Of a DNA stretch of 64,000 nucleotides, positions 56,843 through 63,157 are shown piece after piece; the first letter of the stretch is position 1, and each line of letters starts with the position of its first letter. A program made the translations under genes and the position numbers. Under the pieces are notes generated by a model. It was not told the origin of the DNA, did no database searches, and saw nothing but the letters and a program-made list of their open reading frames with translations. The DNA lies in assembly GCA_026692845.1 (NCBI GenBank), contig JAPLNM010000098.1:1-64000 (forward strand), written 5' to 3'. This DNA comes from Planctomycetota bacterium (GTDB lineage Bacteria; Planctomycetota; Planctomycetia; Pirellulales; Pirellulaceae).

Positions 56843-57925
56843 TCAGGACGAAGACAATGGGGTTTCGGGGGATTCCTTGGCATTTGTCAAAATCGAAGGC
56901 TCCTTGGCAAGCTCAGGGGCTCCTGCTGGTTTGCCATGCGGTGCGGCTTTCGGTGCGTTCAACAGAACAGTCACAGCGCCGAGGATCCCCAGCAGTAGAG
57001 AACCTGCGAACATCGCATTGAGACTATCGAACTTTCCTTTTTCGACGATGCTCGCGATGGTGTTGATCACCGGAGCAAAACCGAAGACAAGCGGCATGAT
57101 GAAGATCGGCTTGCCGCCGTAGGTAAATGCCAGGATGATCCCAAGGGCGCCCATCGCACCGCAGGTTCCCGCTAAGATCGACCAGATCATCCCTGGCAAT
57201 TGGTAGGCGCTGGTTTGATGCATCGCCATCGATTCAAGCAGCACAACCGGGATGATCACGGCGATGAGGAAATAGGCGATGCCGACGCAGCAGAAGGGTC
57301 GGAGTCGCGAACCGCCCATCTTGGATTGTCCGATGTGCAAGAAAGGTCCGTAGGAGCCCCAGCACAGCACAGCCATGGCGATCGAGAGTCCGACTGCCAA
57401 CCAATTCAAAGCGACCTCACCATCAACGGCTTTCGGCTGCGGCTTGTTCAAAAACACTCCGATCATCCCCAAGGCGACCATGCCCATACCGACGAGAAAC
57501 ATCGGCTTGATCTGCTTGAAGGATTTGTTCAGGTACGATGTAAGCAGCGTGTTGACTACCGGAGCGCCACCAAAGACGATCGGCATGACAAAGATGGCTT
57601 GGGCTTTGAACGCCAGAGCCAGGGTCACTCCGAGGGCTCCTAAAGCTCCGACGGTCCCGGCAAACAACGCCATGATCGTCCCGCTGACGGACCAGAATCC
57701 GGTTTCGCGTTTGCGGTTCAGTAAGGCCACTGGGACCAGGACGGCGATAAGAAAATACGCCAGTCCGACACCGACAAACGCACGCAGGGAAACACCGATT
57801 TCACCTTGAAAGGTTTTCTCTTTGAGCTCCATCAAGGAAGTGCCTTTGTGGAGCACGATGCCGTAGATGCCCCAAAAGAAGGCGGTCATTGCGGTAAAGA
57901 GCAAGACGAAAGGGAGTTTGGACAT
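56843..57925 (-). CDS. multi-pass membrane protein, DMT/RhaT-like
   Basis: A 360-residue integral membrane protein with about ten hydrophobic segments and two homologous halves. FFWGIYGIVLHKGTS in the first matches LCWGSYGPFLHIGQS in the second; FVMPIVFGGAPVVNTLLTS matches FIMPLVFGFAPVINTIASI. This internal duplication is typical of drug/metabolite-transporter and RhaT-like sugar transporters. Transport of a sugar or metabolite is inferred; the substrate is unknown. The C-terminal tail is Ala/Pro/Ser-rich and cytoplasmic. It lies 104 bp downstream of nadA and 75 bp upstream of the oxidoreductase gene, on the same strand. Confidence 0.8.
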   Translation of the reverse strand: MSKLPFVLLFTAMTAFFWGIYGIVLHKGTSLMELKEKTFQGEIGVSLRAFVGVGLAYFLIAVLVPVALLNRKRETGFWSVSGTIMALFAGTVGALGALGVTLALAFKAQAIFVMPIVFGGAPVVNTLLTSYLNKSFKQIKPMFLVGMGMVALGMIGVFLNKPQPKAVDGEVALNWLAVGLSIAMAVLCWGSYGPFLHIGQSKMGGSRLRPFCCVGIAYFLIAVIIPVVLLESMAMHQTSAYQLPGMIWSILAGTCGAMGALGIILAFTYGGKPIFIMPLVFGFAPVINTIASIVEKGKFDSLNAMFAGSLLLGILGAVTVLLNAPKAAPHGKPAGAPELAKEPSILTNAKESPETPLSSS

Positions 57926-57986: not shown

Positions 57987-58041
57987 TAATCTAGCGACGG
58001 TAATCTAGCGACGAATTTATTTCACGGCTTTATTTCACGGC
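57987..58041. repeat. two adjacent tandem duplications at the nadA 3' end
   Basis: A 14-bp unit (taatctagcgacgg) is doubled at 57987-58014 and a 13-bp unit (tttatttcacggc) is doubled at 58016-58041. The second copies the end of nadA including its stop codon. Confidence 0.9.
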
Positions 58042-59166
58042 GAGCATGCGTTCCAAGGCGATCAGCGACCAGCGAGCGACGTCCTCTTTGACGTGGATCT
58101 GGTTGACGACGGTTCCTTGAACGATGTTTTCGAGGCACCAGCAAAGGTGCGCAAGATCGATTCGATACATCGTCGCGCACATGCAAACCAGCGGAGACAG
58201 GAAGTGGATCTGTTGTTCGGGGTGTTGTTCTTTGAGGCGATTGACCAAGTGGAGTTCGGTACCGATGGCCCATTGGGTACCGGGTGGAGCCTTCTTGACT
58301 GTCTCGATGATTTTGCTCGTCGAGCCTGAGATATCGGCGATGTCGTTGACCTCTTGGGGGCATTCGGGGTGGACGAGGATCTGGATGCCGGGATACTTTT
58401 TACGAAATTCATGAACGTGGGACGCTTGGAACATTTGGTGGACCGAGCAGTGCCCCTTCCAGAGGATGACTTTCGAGTCCTCGATGGCTTGTCGGCTGTT
58501 TCCGCCGTGTTCTTCTTCGTGTGGATTCCAGATGGGCATTTGGGAATTGGGGATTCCCATCTTCAGGGCGGTGTTTCGACCGAGGTGTTGGTCGGGAAAA
58601 AAGAAGACCCGTTTGCGTTGTGCGAAGGACCATTCCAAGACGGCTTTGGCGTTGCTGCTGGTGCACACGATGCCGCCATGCTTTCCGCAGAAGGCTTTGA
58701 GGCTCGCGGCGCTGTTGATGTAGGTCACCGGGGTGAGGTCTTGGGTGTCGATGACTTCGGAGAGTTGACTCCAAGCCGACTCGACTTGACGGATCGCGGC
58801 CATATCGGCCATCGAGCATCCGGCGGCCATGTCGGGCAGGACGACGGCCACGCGTTGACCGCTGCGCTCTTGGAGCTTCTCGGGGCGATTGGCCAGGATG
58901 TCGGCCGTTTCGGCCATGAAGTGCACGCCGCAGAAAACGATGCTGCGGCAATCGGGGCTGTCGGCAGCGAGCTTGCTCAATTGATAGGAATCGCCTGTCA
59001 GGTCTGCATGCTTGATGACTTCATCTTGTTGGTAATGGTGGCCGAGGATGAGCAAGCTTTTACCGAGCGTTTTTTTCGCTTGTGCGATCCGCTCGCAAAG
59101 CTCCTCGTTACCCAGCTGGCGATAGGGTGCAAAGGGTTTGGAAGAGTCGAGGGTTGCGTTGATCAT
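58030..59166 (-). CDS. nadA: quinolinate synthase
   Basis: Condenses iminoaspartate with dihydroxyacetone phosphate to quinolinate in de novo NAD synthesis, using a 4Fe-4S cluster. From the ATG at 59166 it has 378 residues. Motifs are LGHHYQQDEVIKHADLTGDS near residue 42, FCGVHFMAETADIL, GCSMAD with one cluster cysteine, HPECPQEV and the C-terminal CMCATMYRIDLAH with others. A TTG 12 bases upstream is also in frame. nadB and nadC are not in the window. The gene follows accD by 50 bp, and the last 12 codons carry a tandem duplication at the DNA level. Confidence 0.96.
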   Translation of the reverse strand: MINATLDSSKPFAPYRQLGNEELCERIAQAKKTLGKSLLILGHHYQQDEVIKHADLTGDSYQLSKLAADSPDCRSIVFCGVHFMAETADILANRPEKLQERSGQRVAVVLPDMAAGCSMADMAAIRQVESAWSQLSEVIDTQDLTPVTYINSAASLKAFCGKHGGIVCTSSNAKAVLEWSFAQRKRVFFFPDQHLGRNTALKMGIPNSQMPIWNPHEEEHGGNSRQAIEDSKVILWKGHCSVHQMFQASHVHEFRKKYPGIQILVHPECPQEVNDIADISGSTSKIIETVKKAPPGTQWAIGTELHLVNRLKEQHPEQQIHFLSPLVCMCATMYRIDLAHLCWCLENIVQGTVVNQIHVKEDVARWSLIALERMLAVK

Positions 59167-59216
59167 GCTGATTCCCAAAGCGCAAGGCCGGTGGGTCGGC
59201 CGGGGGTGAGTTTGAG

Positions 59217-60074
59217 TTATTGTTTACCGCAGTAGTCGATAGCGGCTGCGATTTCGGTTTTGAGGCGGAAGCGTTCGACGATACGATCGATGTAGCCATG
59301 CTCGAGTAAAAATTCGCTTGTTTGGAAGCCTTCGGGAAGCTCGATTCGGATGGTGGCTTTGATGGTCCTTGGACCTGCAAACCCGATAAGGGCTTTGGGT
59401 TCGGCGAACACCAGATCCCCGAGGCTTGCGAAACTTGCGGCCACGCCTCCCATGGTGGGGTTGGTCAGGACGCTGATAAAGAAACCACCCGAGGCATCGT
59501 AGCGAGCCAAGGCCGCAGAGACCTTGGCCATCTGCATAAGCGATAAAATCCCTTCGTGCATCCGTGCTCCGCCCCCCGAACCGCTGACGATGATCAAGGG
59601 CAGATGATGCTCGGTGGCCCGTTCGATCAGTCGCGTGAGCCGTTCGCCGACAACCGAGCCCATGCTGCCCATGATGAAAGCCGAGTCGGTCACTGCGATC
59701 GCCACGCGCCGAGCGCGGATCATCCCCGTTCCACATAGAGCCGCGTCGGTCAGGCCCGTGCGCGACTGTTCGGCGGTGAGTCGATCGGCGTACGATTTTT
59801 TATCCGAGAATTTCAGCGGGTCGGAAGGCAAAACGTGTTCGTCATGGGCCTCAAACGTCCCATCGTCGAGCAATTGGGCGATTCGCTCCCAGGCCGATAC
59901 GTAGTTGTGATAGCGGCACTTGGGGCAGATGCTCAGGTTTTTCTCGAGTTCTTTGCGGTAGATCGACTCTCCGCATCCTGGGCATCGGACCCAGAGTCCC
60001 TCGGGAATTCCTCGTTTCATAGCGGGCGATGGCCCGGAAGTCGGTTCGGTATTGGACGGATCAGCGATGGCCAT
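59217..60074 (-). CDS. accD: acetyl-CoA carboxylase carboxyltransferase subunit beta
   Basis: Beta subunit of the carboxyltransferase making malonyl-CoA for fatty-acid synthesis. At 285 residues it has the normal length. The zinc ribbon is Cys31, Cys34, Cys50 and Cys53 (CPGC and CPKC). The crotonase-fold core reads [20 protein letters not shown] near residue 140 and [20 protein letters not shown] near 165, then [20 protein letters not shown] near 210. It pairs with AccA, which is not in the window. It is 50 bp upstream of nadA and 94 bp downstream of the histidine-phosphatase-like gene. Confidence 0.97.
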
Positions 60075-60168: not shown

Positions 60169-60750
60169 CTAGGCCATGAGTTTCAAGGAGTCTTTGTCCG
60201 AGTCGATCAATTCCCAGGTTCCGTCGTCGCATTCGGACTTCCAAAAGTCATCGAACGGCGAGGATTTCAGTTGCGTCGCGACCATGGAAGCAAGCGGCTC
60301 GGGGATAACGACCGCAATGACCTCTTTGGCGTGCTTTCTCTGAAGTTTTTGGAGTTGTTTGGCGACCCGGCGCAGGGCTTCTGCCACCGTTTCTCCTTCG
60401 GGAGGGTGAAAAGAACTGGGGTCTTCCTGGACTTGGCGGTAGACTTTGGGCTGATGGCGCTTGATCTCCTCGATGCACTTGCCTTCCCAAAGCCCGTGGT
60501 CGAGGTTTCGGAGCCAATCGCAGATTTTCCACCTGCAGTTGGCTTTTTCCGCCAGCATCTTGGCCGTATCGCTGGCCGATTCGCAAGGACCGCAGTAGAT
60601 CATCGCGATGGGGTATTTAGAGATCTGATCGATCGCTAAGAGGACTTGCTGTTTCCCGACTTCGGATAAAGGAATATCTAAACTCCCTTTCATCCGTTCC
60701 TGCTCGTCCAAGGCCGTGGCACCGGGACGAACGACCAACACTTGACTCAT
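60169..60750 (-). CDS. histidine-phosphatase-fold protein lacking catalytic histidines
   Basis: A 193-residue protein with the phosphoglycerate-mutase-like fold. The start LVVRPGATALDEQERMKGSL corresponds to the usual LVRHGET..., but the nucleophilic His is Pro9. Near residue 45 IYCGPCESASDTAKMLAE aligns with the family's SxxxRAxQTA, with the Arg replaced. LRNLDHGLWEGKCIEEI matches LxExxxGxWEG. The second catalytic His (normally SHGG) is replaced in IAVVIPEPLASMVA. With both histidines gone it is unlikely to be a phosphatase and may bind a phosphorylated ligand or regulate a neighbour. It lies 21 bp after rpe and before accD. Confidence 0.82.
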   Translation of the reverse strand: MSQVLVVRPGATALDEQERMKGSLDIPLSEVGKQQVLLAIDQISKYPIAMIYCGPCESASDTAKMLAEKANCRWKICDWLRNLDHGLWEGKCIEEIKRHQPKVYRQVQEDPSSFHPPEGETVAEALRRVAKQLQKLQRKHAKEVIAVVIPEPLASMVATQLKSSPFDDFWKSECDDGTWELIDSDKDSLKLMA

Positions 60751-60771: not shown

Positions 60772-61494
60772 CTACGCGTCGGACCCGGCCCCAAAGGCCT
60801 TGATTTGGCATCGCAATCGCGTCATCGCTTGGCAGTAATCTGCCTCGCGGAAAATAGCCGAACCTACGACAAGTAGGTCGGCACCATGGGATGTGACCGA
60901 CGCGATGGTCTGGCTATTGACCCCACCATCGACCTCCAACAGAAGGCTCGGTCCATAAGTTTCACGAAGATATTTCAAGCGTTCCAAGGCGATCGGATTG
61001 AAGGCTTGACCCCCAAATCCGGCTTGGACACTCATGACCAACACCAGATCGCATTCAGGGACAAATCGGAGCAATGCCTCCATCGGAGTCGATGGATTGA
61101 TGGCAAGTCCTGCAGCCACCCCCGCTCCGCGGAGCTGGGCAAGCAAGTCCGAGGGCTCAGGCTCAGCCTCGATGTGAAACGTGATGCAATCGGCCCCTGC
61201 ATCGACAAAGGCTTTGGCAAACCTCTGCGGCGAAGCGATCATCAAGTGCACGTCGATCTTGAGCGTCGTGACGCGACGCAACGACTCGACTATAGGCATG
61301 CCATACGTCAGGTTCGGTACGAATTGACCGTCCATGACATCCAGATGAAGCGCTTCGACACCCGCTTCTTCGAGCCGCTCGACTTCTTGCTGCAGATTGG
61401 CAAAATCGCAAAGAAGCAACGAGGGCAGAATCGCGGGGCGAATCCCCCGGAATAGTTTAAGAGTTTGCTCGACACGCGAACCGATTTGGCTCAT
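60772..61494 (-). CDS. rpe: ribulose-phosphate 3-epimerase
   Basis: Interconverts ribulose-5-phosphate and xylulose-5-phosphate in the pentose phosphate pathway. From the ATG at 61494 it has 240 residues, normal length; a longer frame to 61737 would overlap the divergent uvrC gene and is rejected. TIM-barrel motifs are ILPSLLLCDFANLQQEVERL near residue 22, LHLDVMDGQFVPNLTYG near 51, DVHLMIASPQ near 80, AGFGGQAFNP near 152 and LLEVDGGVNSQTI near 182. Divergent from uvrC with a 142-bp gap, and followed 21 bp later by the histidine-phosphatase-like gene. Confidence 0.96.
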   Translation of the reverse strand: MSQIGSRVEQTLKLFRGIRPAILPSLLLCDFANLQQEVERLEEAGVEALHLDVMDGQFVPNLTYGMPIVESLRRVTTLKIDVHLMIASPQRFAKAFVDAGADCITFHIEAEPEPSDLLAQLRGAGVAAGLAINPSTPMEALLRFVPECDLVLVMSVQAGFGGQAFNPIALERLKYLRETYGPSLLLEVDGGVNSQTIASVTSHGADLLVVGSAIFREADYCQAMTRLRCQIKAFGAGSDA

Positions 61495-61626
61495 AAAGGA
61501 TATGCATGCAAGGAATGGCAGGTTCGAATCGACCCGCTCGACACAAACCACCATAAAGCCCCACGGGGGCTTGTACAAGAGGCAAAATTTTGTGTAGCGG
61601 GAAAGCAACGCGAAAAACCACCCAAA

Positions 61627-61632
61627 AGGAGG
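61627..61632 (+). promoter_or_regulatory. Shine-Dalgarno sequence of uvrC
   Basis: AGGAGG lies 4 bases before a GTG codon at 61637. Strong Shine-Dalgarno sequences are rare in this window, so this one decides the GTG start of uvrC. Confidence 0.8.
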
Positions 61633-61636
61633 GGAC

Positions 61637-63157
61637 GTGTCGGAAGGAAAATCAAGCGATTCTGGGCCTTTAGAGCCAGAACAAGCCAACGAACCCCAGA
61701 TTCCAGAAACCGAGAAATCTTCGAGCCCATCCCCCATCGATCCGACCCCGTCCGATCCGCTATCCGGGAACCTCGGCTACCGAAGAGCCGCGCAAAAGGT
61801 TCGGGATTTCCCTCAGACTCCAGGCGTCTACCTGATGAAAGACGTATCGGGCGTGGTGATCTACATCGGCAAAGCCAAAAACCTAAGGTCGCGCGCCGGA
61901 AGTTATTTCCAATCGACCGCAGCGCAAGAAGCCCGAACCGCCGAATGGATCGCCGAGATCGCCGATATCGACTTCATGGAGTGCGACAGCGAAGTCGACG
62001 CGCTGCTGACGGAAAACCGACTCGTCAAAGACATCCAACCGCGCCACAACAAAGATCTCAAGGACGACAAGTCCTTCCCCTACCTGATGATCACCACCCA
62101 CGAAGACTTTCCAAGAGTCGAGGTGACCCGGTCCCCGAAGACCAAAGGGGCCAAGTTGTTTGGGCCGTTTACCAGCGCCGGACAATTGCGAGGGGCTTTG
62201 CAAGTCATGCAACGCGTCTTTCAATTCCGAACCTGCTCGCTAGATATCGAAGAAAATGACCCGCGATGGCAATGGTTCCGACCCTGCCTCTTGGCATCCA
62301 TCGAGCAATGCTCGGCTCCCTGCAACCTGAGAATCAGTAAAGAGGACTACAAGCGCGATATTCGACGCCTCCAGACGTTCCTCGAAGAAGGCGGCAAAAA
62401 ACTCCTCGGCCAGATGCGCCAGGAAATGCTCGATGCCTCCAAACAACTCGACTTCGAACGCGCCGCGAAACTCCGCGACGAAATCCAACTCTTGGAAAAT
62501 CTCAACCGACGCGGCCAGATCGATACCCATGCACAACCCGAAGTCTTCTACATCGACCCAAAACGCGGCATGCGCGGTCTGCGAAAAATCCTCGGTATGG
62601 ATCGAGACCCTCGCGTGATCGAAGGAATCGATATCGCCCACTTAGCCGGCCAAGACACCGTCGCCTCACTGGTCCAATTCCTCGACGGTCTACCCTTCAA
62701 GCCCGGATACCGCCGCTACAAAATCCAAGGCGTCGAAGGAATCGATGATTATCGATCGATCCACGAAGTCGTCGCACGACGCTTTCGTCGCATGGCCGAC
62801 CAAGAGGATACCTTCCCCGATCTACTCATGATCGATGGCGGAAAAGGCCAACTCAATGCCGCTCTGGCCGCCTTTCGCGACTGCGATCTGACCCCACCGG
62901 TCCTGGTCTCCCTTGCCAAACAAAACGAAGAGATCTTTCTGCCCGGCCAAAAAGAGCCCATCCGACTCGGACGCGACTCCTTCGCCCTGCGTTTGCTCCA
63001 GTACGTGCGCGACGAAGCCCACCGATTCGCCCAACATTATCACCACCTGCTCCGCCGCAAAAGCGCCTTTAGCAGCGCCAAGGATCCCAAAAAAGGGGAT
63101 TCGCCCAGCCCAAAACCTACCAAACGCGAAAAAGACCCCGACATCGAAAGCCCCTAA
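61637..63157 (+). CDS. uvrC: excinuclease ABC subunit C, short form
   Basis: Makes both incisions of nucleotide-excision repair. The 506-residue protein starts at a GTG preceded by AGGAGG. After a Ser/Pro-rich leader comes the GIY-YIG nuclease (PGVYLMKDVSGVVIYIGKAK, ~60-79), the UVR helical region (ASKQLDFERAAKLRDEIQLL, ~267-286) and the RNase H-like C-nuclease (IEGIDIAHLAGQD near 335, LLMIDGGKGQLNAA near 395, HRFAQHYHHLLRRK near 465). The tandem helix-hairpin-helix repeats that normally follow (proteins of ~600 residues) are absent; a Lys/Pro/Ser tail ends the protein. The incision domains look intact. Confidence 0.93.
   Translation: MSEGKSSDSGPLEPEQANEPQIPETEKSSSPSPIDPTPSDPLSGNLGYRRAAQKVRDFPQTPGVYLMKDVSGVVIYIGKAKNLRSRAGSYFQSTAAQEARTAEWIAEIADIDFMECDSEVDALLTENRLVKDIQPRHNKDLKDDKSFPYLMITTHEDFPRVEVTRSPKTKGAKLFGPFTSAGQLRGALQVMQRVFQFRTCSLDIEENDPRWQWFRPCLLASIEQCSAPCNLRISKEDYKRDIRRLQTFLEEGGKKLLGQMRQEMLDASKQLDFERAAKLRDEIQLLENLNRRGQIDTHAQPEVFYIDPKRGMRGLRKILGMDRDPRVIEGIDIAHLAGQDTVASLVQFLDGLPFKPGYRRYKIQGVEGIDDYRSIHEVVARRFRRMADQEDTFPDLLMIDGGKGQLNAALAAFRDCDLTPPVLVSLAKQNEEIFLPGQKEPIRLGRDSFALRLLQYVRDEAHRFAQHYHHLLRRKSAFSSAKDPKKGDSPSPKPTKREKDPDIESP

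Follow-up and report, generated by a model that had tools for sequence, protein, structure and literature searches.

The question raised by this locus is whether a small gene lying between a pentose-phosphate gene and a lipid-synthesis gene, hereafter called X, still encodes an enzyme and, if it does not, what its product may do. The window (the whole stretch of DNA analysed, 64,000 nucleotides from a Planctomycetota bacterium) had been given a first-pass annotation, in which X was described as a histidine-phosphatase fold with both catalytic histidines lost (RPG for RHG, IPEP for SHGG, and GxWEG kept), as an intact gene tightly placed between rpe and accD and therefore a probable pseudoenzyme under maintenance, and as a possible sensor of a sugar phosphate for the neighbouring pathway. 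The features of the locus are listed in Table 1.

Table 1. Gene X, its altered active-site residues and its neighbours (positions in the window)
Feature	Position	Strand	Basis
X, pseudo-histidine-phosphatase gene	60169..60750	-	ORF; Pfam His_Phos_1 5.3e-33; AlphaFold model
R8-P9-G10 in place of RHG motif	60721..60729	-	no H at 9 in 89 distinct order-level rows
Asp15 (Asn in His-bearing homologues)	60706..60708	-	D in 81/89 order-level rows; N in 30/31 His-bearing homologues
Ser58 replacing second phosphate-binding Arg	60577..60579	-	S49, A22, P11, C3, H2, D1, R1 of 89 order-level rows
Asn82 replacing catalytic Glu	60505..60507	-	N in 89/89 order-level rows; E29, D2 of 31 His-bearing homologues
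GLWEG fold landmark, residues 86-90, retained	60481..60495	-	G86, W88, G90 in 89/89 rows; L87 in 88/89
I149-P150-E151-P152 in place of SHGG	60295..60306	-	position 150 without His in all 89 rows; P152 invariant (89/89)
rpe, ribulose-phosphate 3-epimerase, upstream neighbour	60772..61737	-	TIGR01163 9.6e-73; PF00834 over stretch 103-296
accD, acetyl-CoA carboxylase carboxyltransferase beta, downstream neighbour	59217..60074	-	TIGR00515 7.7e-111, over cut-off
nadA, quinolinate synthase, following gene, same orientation	58030..59178	-	PF02445 1e-98

X is an uninterrupted open reading frame of 193 amino acids with an ATG start and a TAG stop, separated by 21 nt from the stop of rpe and by 94 nt from the start of accD, and the description of an intact, tightly set gene therefore holds. 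The Pfam family His_Phos_1 (PF00300) scores 114.8 bits (cut-off 21.7), and the match spans profile positions 2-187 of 194; it was the only family above the cut-off in the Pfam scan of X (E<=0.1), in which the branch-2 profile PF00328 was absent. The structure prediction proposed by the first-pass annotation gave an AlphaFold model (pLDDT 92.9, pTM 0.89) in which the histidine-phosphatase fold is retained. Its best match in the PDB is 4ij6_B, a structure of PSP1/PspA from Hydrogenobacter thermophilus, which shares the fold over the full model (VIA Z 24.9 for 4ij6 and 24.4 for 4ij5, rmsd 1.9 A, 188 and 187 residues), and the best Foldseek match was likewise Hydrogenobacter phosphoserine phosphatase 1 (TMq 0.86). 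The identity of X to PSP1 (4ij5/4ij6) is 26%, with profile E-values of 1.1e-38 and 2.6e-38. Both the profile match and the overall fold of the predicted model place X among the branch-1 histidine phosphatases, a fold shared with PhoE/YhfR of Bacillus stearothermophilus and the CobC alpha-ribazole phosphatases.

NCBIfam models for PspA, CobC and others also match X, all under their curated cut-offs, and none of the equivalog cut-offs is reached: the scores are 96.3 of 350 bits for PSP1/PspA, the best, 91.6 of 162.9 for CobC and 51.2 of 261 for GpmB. All 72 members of the X alignment match the PspA, CobC or GpmB models at E<=1e-3. A match in PHROGs (phrog_12933, 4.8e-17) is annotated as function unknown. 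The nearest named relatives come from Pirellula and other Planctomycetota MAGs (seven loci, 61-97% identity). Long open frames around X at two loci (L159 and L162) were considered as fusions; Pfam gave His_Phos_1 alone, and they were taken as chance frames.

Two phosphate-binding arginines and one acid/base glutamate are typical of branch-1 histidine phosphatases, and in this fold both histidines and the second arginine hold the phosphate. When X was aligned with PSP1 and with His-bearing homologues of planctomycetes, the alignment on which all statements on the pocket rest, R8 was found to be kept, and H9 is changed to P, N15 to D, R58 to S, E82 to N and the second histidine to P150. The structure 4ij5 has R-H at 8-9, R58, E82 and the second histidine where X has R-P, S58, N82 and P-E-P; Ser58 stands at the arginine position of the 'RA..TA' motif, and Asn82 at the glutamate position that precedes GxWxG. 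X is thus without the phospho-acceptor histidine of the RHG motif, the second catalytic histidine of the SHGG-type motif, and the full set of two arginines and a glutamate (R58 in 1 of 89 order-level rows, N82 in all 89), unlike the PhoE/YhfR and CobC enzymes. R8, T12, R19 and G22 are still present. The three motifs were read in X just as the first-pass annotation had reported them.

The 89 order-level rows are the distinct ones among the window, L001-L007 and L008-L097, of which L001-L007 add names and no genomes, their contigs having the lengths of those that carry L009-L014 and L016. Position 9 in these rows is P in 81, S in 4, A in 2 and T in 1, with one gap in a shortened row (L090), and position 150 is P in 75, S in 8, A in 5 and R in 1. 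Glutamate at position 151 was found in 72 rows and R8 in 80. Position 58, which is variable in X (Table 1), is arginine in all 31 His-bearing homologues and in all 16 homologues from genomes devoid of X (see below).

The alignment of orthologues proposed by the first-pass annotation extended this loss far beyond the window. A histidine at position 9 or 150 was found in none of 145 genomes (one copy has a gap at 9), each genome being counted once: 105 from the order of the window (90 plus 15), 32 from its class and 8 from farther away. The 90 order-level genomes correspond to L008-L097, and the other 15 were obtained from the best loci of two wider searches, the reading of which covered the top 30 loci and a choice of regions. 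No copy that was read departs from the loss, and none of these orthologues has RHG in the same place. Among 99 genomes, comprising that of the window and those of relatives, a profile search matched 94, at orthologue level in 90; four matched genomes (G033, G040, G055 and G086) hold His-bearing homologues alone, and X is absent from nine of the 99. Of the 90 top matches within the order, a single one (L015) contains an internal stop, located near the C terminus.

The second arginine is missing from all copies read but one. Asn82 was found in all 90 and all 15 order-level genomes and in all 32 class genomes (137 together), and the eight distant members have E in seven and G in one at this position. 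These eight are the members without the histidines among 20 regions fetched, the other 12 of which carry RHG or RHA. In the distant members both histidines and Arg58 are gone as well, and the change from Glu to Asn82 is confined to the class of the window. Since Glu82 is mostly present in members that have already lost the histidines and arginine, the loss of these residues, as judged from these counts and the tree described below, probably preceded the replacement of Glu by Asn in the lineage leading to the class of the window. The distant members, which mostly keep Glu82, represent naturally occurring intermediate stages on the way to a non-catalytic protein, and the stepwise series (both histidines and arginine first, Glu to Asn later) provides a good natural example of an enzyme turned into a non-enzyme.

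The dead-site motifs of the distant members (L173, L174, L175, L178, L180, L181, L185 and L192) include RAG, RDA, RSG, KSE, RCS, RGS and TSS, and the residues at 150-152 are other than those of order-level X. A diverged X (profile E 1e-28 to 1e-32) lacking both histidines was also found between rpe and accD at three loci of a single f22 genus (L224, L249 and L252).

In a maximum-likelihood tree of 82 rows, all 50 pseudo members (26 from the order, 16 from the class and 8 distant) share one side of a single branch, with support of 100/100 and 100% of 200 bootstraps, the bootstrap of this tree being not fully settled. The branch uniting X keeps an SH-aLRT value of 98 when the catalytic columns are removed (81 rows, quick method). 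The 20 paralogue rows of the 82-row tree (19 in the 81-row tree, from which L245 was left out) were picked by the pattern RH[GA], and thus carry His9 by construction; L278, a homologue outside this selection pattern, also shows R-H and the second histidine.

The dN/dS ratio of X was 0.007-0.10 in the 13 measurable of 19 pairs. For rpe, values of 0.061-0.133 were obtained in 12 of the 13 pairs measurable for X, and, of the 10 pairs with both genes measured, accD had a lower value than X in 8. Because the loss is conserved, the neighbours are fixed, all members form one clade and dN/dS is low, X is considered a real, old pseudoenzyme family of Planctomycetota, predicted from its sequence to be inactive: the enzyme fold is kept in the predicted model, the catalytic residues are lost and the gene is under selection. 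The proposal of a maintained pseudoenzyme in the first-pass annotation is strongly supported by these results together with the intact reading frame.

The conservation of the old pocket was estimated from 19 positions, a set named partly after conservation was seen, for which the mean JS was 0.705 vs 0.523 elsewhere, a value reached by none of 10,000 random sets and none of 180 circular shifts. Among 181 positions, position 82 ranks 2nd and 152 ranks 8th, followed by 15 (35th), 9 (36th), 150 (51st), 151 (80th) and 58 (92nd). Since 82 and 152 rank high and 58, 150 and 151 far lower, the old active site appears to be held as a whole, though not residue by residue, a pattern that fits either a site in use or a structural need.

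The neighbours of X are fixed. With a neighbour defined as a gene on the same strand within 1 kb, rpe and/or accD adjoin X in 145 of 145 genomes. Within the order (105 genomes), rpe upstream and accD downstream were both found in 83, rpe only in 15, accD only in 5, and accD with a contig end on the rpe side in 2; within the class (32 genomes), both neighbours were found in 30 and accD only in 2; and among the eight distant members, both in 5 and accD only in 3. Taken together, the genomes with a broken cluster comprise 15 in which X has kept rpe as its sole neighbour and 10 in which it has kept accD.

The pair of rpe and accD also exists by itself. A total of 38 accD loci were picked from outside the class, genomes known to carry X being excluded, and in 21 of them rpe lies within 1 kb upstream of accD without X (contig ends upstream in three). 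On account of these pairs, X may have been inserted into a pre-existing rpe-accD pair, its neighbourhood being inherited instead of functional. Within the order, seven of the 11 accD loci that lack X keep rpe as the neighbour of accD, and an rpe-accD pair without X was found in one f22 genome (L225). In the rest of the class, no X was detected within about 1.5 kb of accD in six genomes of f23, three of f26 and one of f25; four f23 genomes additional to the 20 scored as X-less (see below) were checked for X solely within this distance of accD. Within the order X has a scattered distribution: on the AccD plus Rpe tree its presence and absence requires nine changes, at least two of which are forced by well-supported branches. 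When the 484 AccD and Rpe columns were tested for association with the loss of X, none survived correction (best p 0.0017).

Some of the broken clusters have other genes close to X. Two other families of the order contribute four loci (L069, L081, L093 and L094) in which rpe does not adjoin X and scpB (PF04079) is found upstream of X at a distance of up to about 0.6 kb. In L079 (G076:C1:910623-921180), from a one-contig genome, accD is distant from rpe-X, at G076:C1:85475-86275, and a gene of the OMP-decarboxylase family (PF00215) is located near X.

The His-bearing homologues served as a control. In 20 genomes X was scored as absent, meaning that nothing besides His-bearing homologues matched the X alignment at E<=1e-8; accD was not found in two of the 20 (G086 and G107). 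From 14 of these genomes, 16 further matches to the X profile were obtained at E<=1e-8, chosen irrespective of residue, and all 16 carry H9, R58, E82 and H150. Within the stretch covered, rpe was not seen upstream, nor accD downstream, of any of the 16 (the contig of one, L287, stops short of the downstream gene), and neither gene was found beside any of the 12 His-bearing (RHG) homologues of the distant genomes.

As to the function of X, we lean, by a narrow balance of probability, to a non-catalytic binding or regulatory protein with a remodelled pocket that acts as a dispensable modulator, a role suggested by the several lineages that live without X. The ancestor of X would be a small PSP1/PhoE/CobC-type phosphatase, and X would no longer perform phosphohistidine chemistry. 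The remodelled old pocket, predicted to comprise R8, P9, T12, D15, R19, G22, N82, W88, E120 and P-E-P at 150-152, may now bind a metabolite that is non-phosphate or weakly held by its phosphate, or else a protein loop. X would probably be produced together with Rpe and AccD, for which the control of acetyl-CoA carboxylase or the flux through the pentose-phosphate pathway would be natural targets.

The suggestion of a sugar-phosphate sensor for the neighbouring pathway gained no support: the phosphate-holding histidines and arginine have been removed, the closeness of X to rpe is explained in part by rpe-accD pairs that exist without X, and no AccD or Rpe residue follows the loss of X. Since the second arginine and both histidines are lost and Asp15 and Glu151 are gained, the inner site is expected to be poor for phosphate, and the sensor idea is weakened; since R8, T12, R19 and G22 remain, X may still bind phosphate weakly. 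In its most specific form, which we hold to be quite unlikely as it stands, the binding-protein reading would have X sense a metabolite in the former active site and tune either the carboxyltransferase of acetyl-CoA carboxylase or the pentose-phosphate branch, as founding member of a bacterial family of pseudo-histidine-phosphatases with a single origin in Planctomycetota. If this were true, the committed step of fatty-acid synthesis or the pentose-phosphate branch would be under a dedicated metabolic regulator of which no description was found.

That X serves exclusively in scaffolding or assembly, its fold acting as an interface to a protein such as AccD/AccA or Rpe and its pocket binding no small molecule, is a possible but rather unlikely alternative. 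The constant presence of rpe and/or accD beside X agrees with such a role, and the new prolines and altered charge of the pocket fit a closed site; however, conservation is higher in the pocket set than in the remainder of the protein, with the proviso given above on how the set was named, and AccD and Rpe show no signature of partner residues when genomes that lost X are compared.

A neofunctionalised enzyme of different chemistry, with R8, D15, N82, E120 and E151 as the new catalytic set, seems improbable. The acid-rich set is largely conserved, and N82 in 137 of 137 order- and class-level genomes is what such an enzyme would display, but E151 (72 of 89 rows) and D15 (81 of 89) are not invariant, and the distant members mostly keep Glu82 in combination with other residues at 150-152.

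Still less do we credit the idea that X serves a process unrelated to Rpe and AccD and owes its position to insertion into an old, order-stable rpe-accD pair. Adjacency of rpe and accD without X in 21 of the 38 chosen loci outside the class, and the survival of X beside either gene alone in broken clusters (15 with rpe, 10 with accD), are in line with it; nevertheless, in none of the 145 genomes is X away from both genes. Gene decay or an error of local sequencing, which the missing histidines alone would suggest, can be given practically no weight, because the same loss recurs in every copy read, dN/dS is at most 0.10 in the measured pairs and internal stops are absent from 89 of the 90 top matches within the order.

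The binding or regulatory role favoured here has a working analogue elsewhere in the superfamily. Members of the histidine phosphatase superfamily are described as sharing a core built on two histidines, and salivary proteins of fleas that belong to this superfamily have lost both, the catalytic histidines being replaced by Gly and by Ser or Pro, and bind amines and leukotrienes; this loss is described there as recent and limited to fleas (PMC10728186). These XcAP-type proteins resemble X in the replacement of both histidines, there turned to ligand binding, and are the closest working analogue found. They are insect salivary proteins of acid-phosphatase branch 2, whereas X is a bacterial branch-1 protein spread class-wide and beyond; because they belong to the other branch, they are only an analogue of X and not a family assignment.

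Proteins linked to the control of bacterial acetyl-CoA carboxylase include PII/GlnB (PMC5080355) and YqhY (PMC5437119); for X such a link is a candidate. In the available main text of a TraDIS paper on Planctopirus limnophila, the terms 'histidine phosphatase', 'phosphoglycerate', 'accD' and 'acetyl-CoA carboxylase' do not occur (PMC10632474), and the X family is not treated in the accessible parts of PMC2964296 or PMC11836120. No prior description of a planctomycete pseudo-histidine-phosphatase was found in open-licence PubMed Central among the matches listed, as far as titles and the starts of abstracts tell. Pseudo-histidine-phosphatases are already known as a kind, and a bacterial family of single origin, extending over a class and farther and fixed beside rpe and accD, was not found described in the same portion of that open-licence collection.

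We take PII/GlnB and YqhY to belong to protein families other than that of X. Family models match X genes as phosphatases or phosphoglycerate mutases, which would very probably be the wrong function for the X family, and the persistence of X, with its dead site, in many planctomycete lineages beside genes of lipid synthesis and the pentose-phosphate pathway offers a concrete handle on the regulation of central metabolism in these unusual bacteria.

Two other open reading frames of the window deserve mention. The first (56843-57925, minus strand) encodes a protein of 360 amino acids that by eye seems hydrophobic and transporter-like, with no Pfam family at E<=1e-3. The second, uvrC (61637-63157, plus strand, 506 amino acids), is divergent from rpe, and its 5' end is overlapped by the rpe ORF as listed. 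Because the homology of rpe begins at about residue 102, the true rpe start is probably located downstream of the listed one. The uvrC ORF contains the Pfam domains GIY-YIG, UVR and RNase H and ends soon past the RNase H domain; as no C-terminal helix-hairpin-helix was matched in Pfam at E<=1e-3, it is possibly a short form of UvrC or a truncation.
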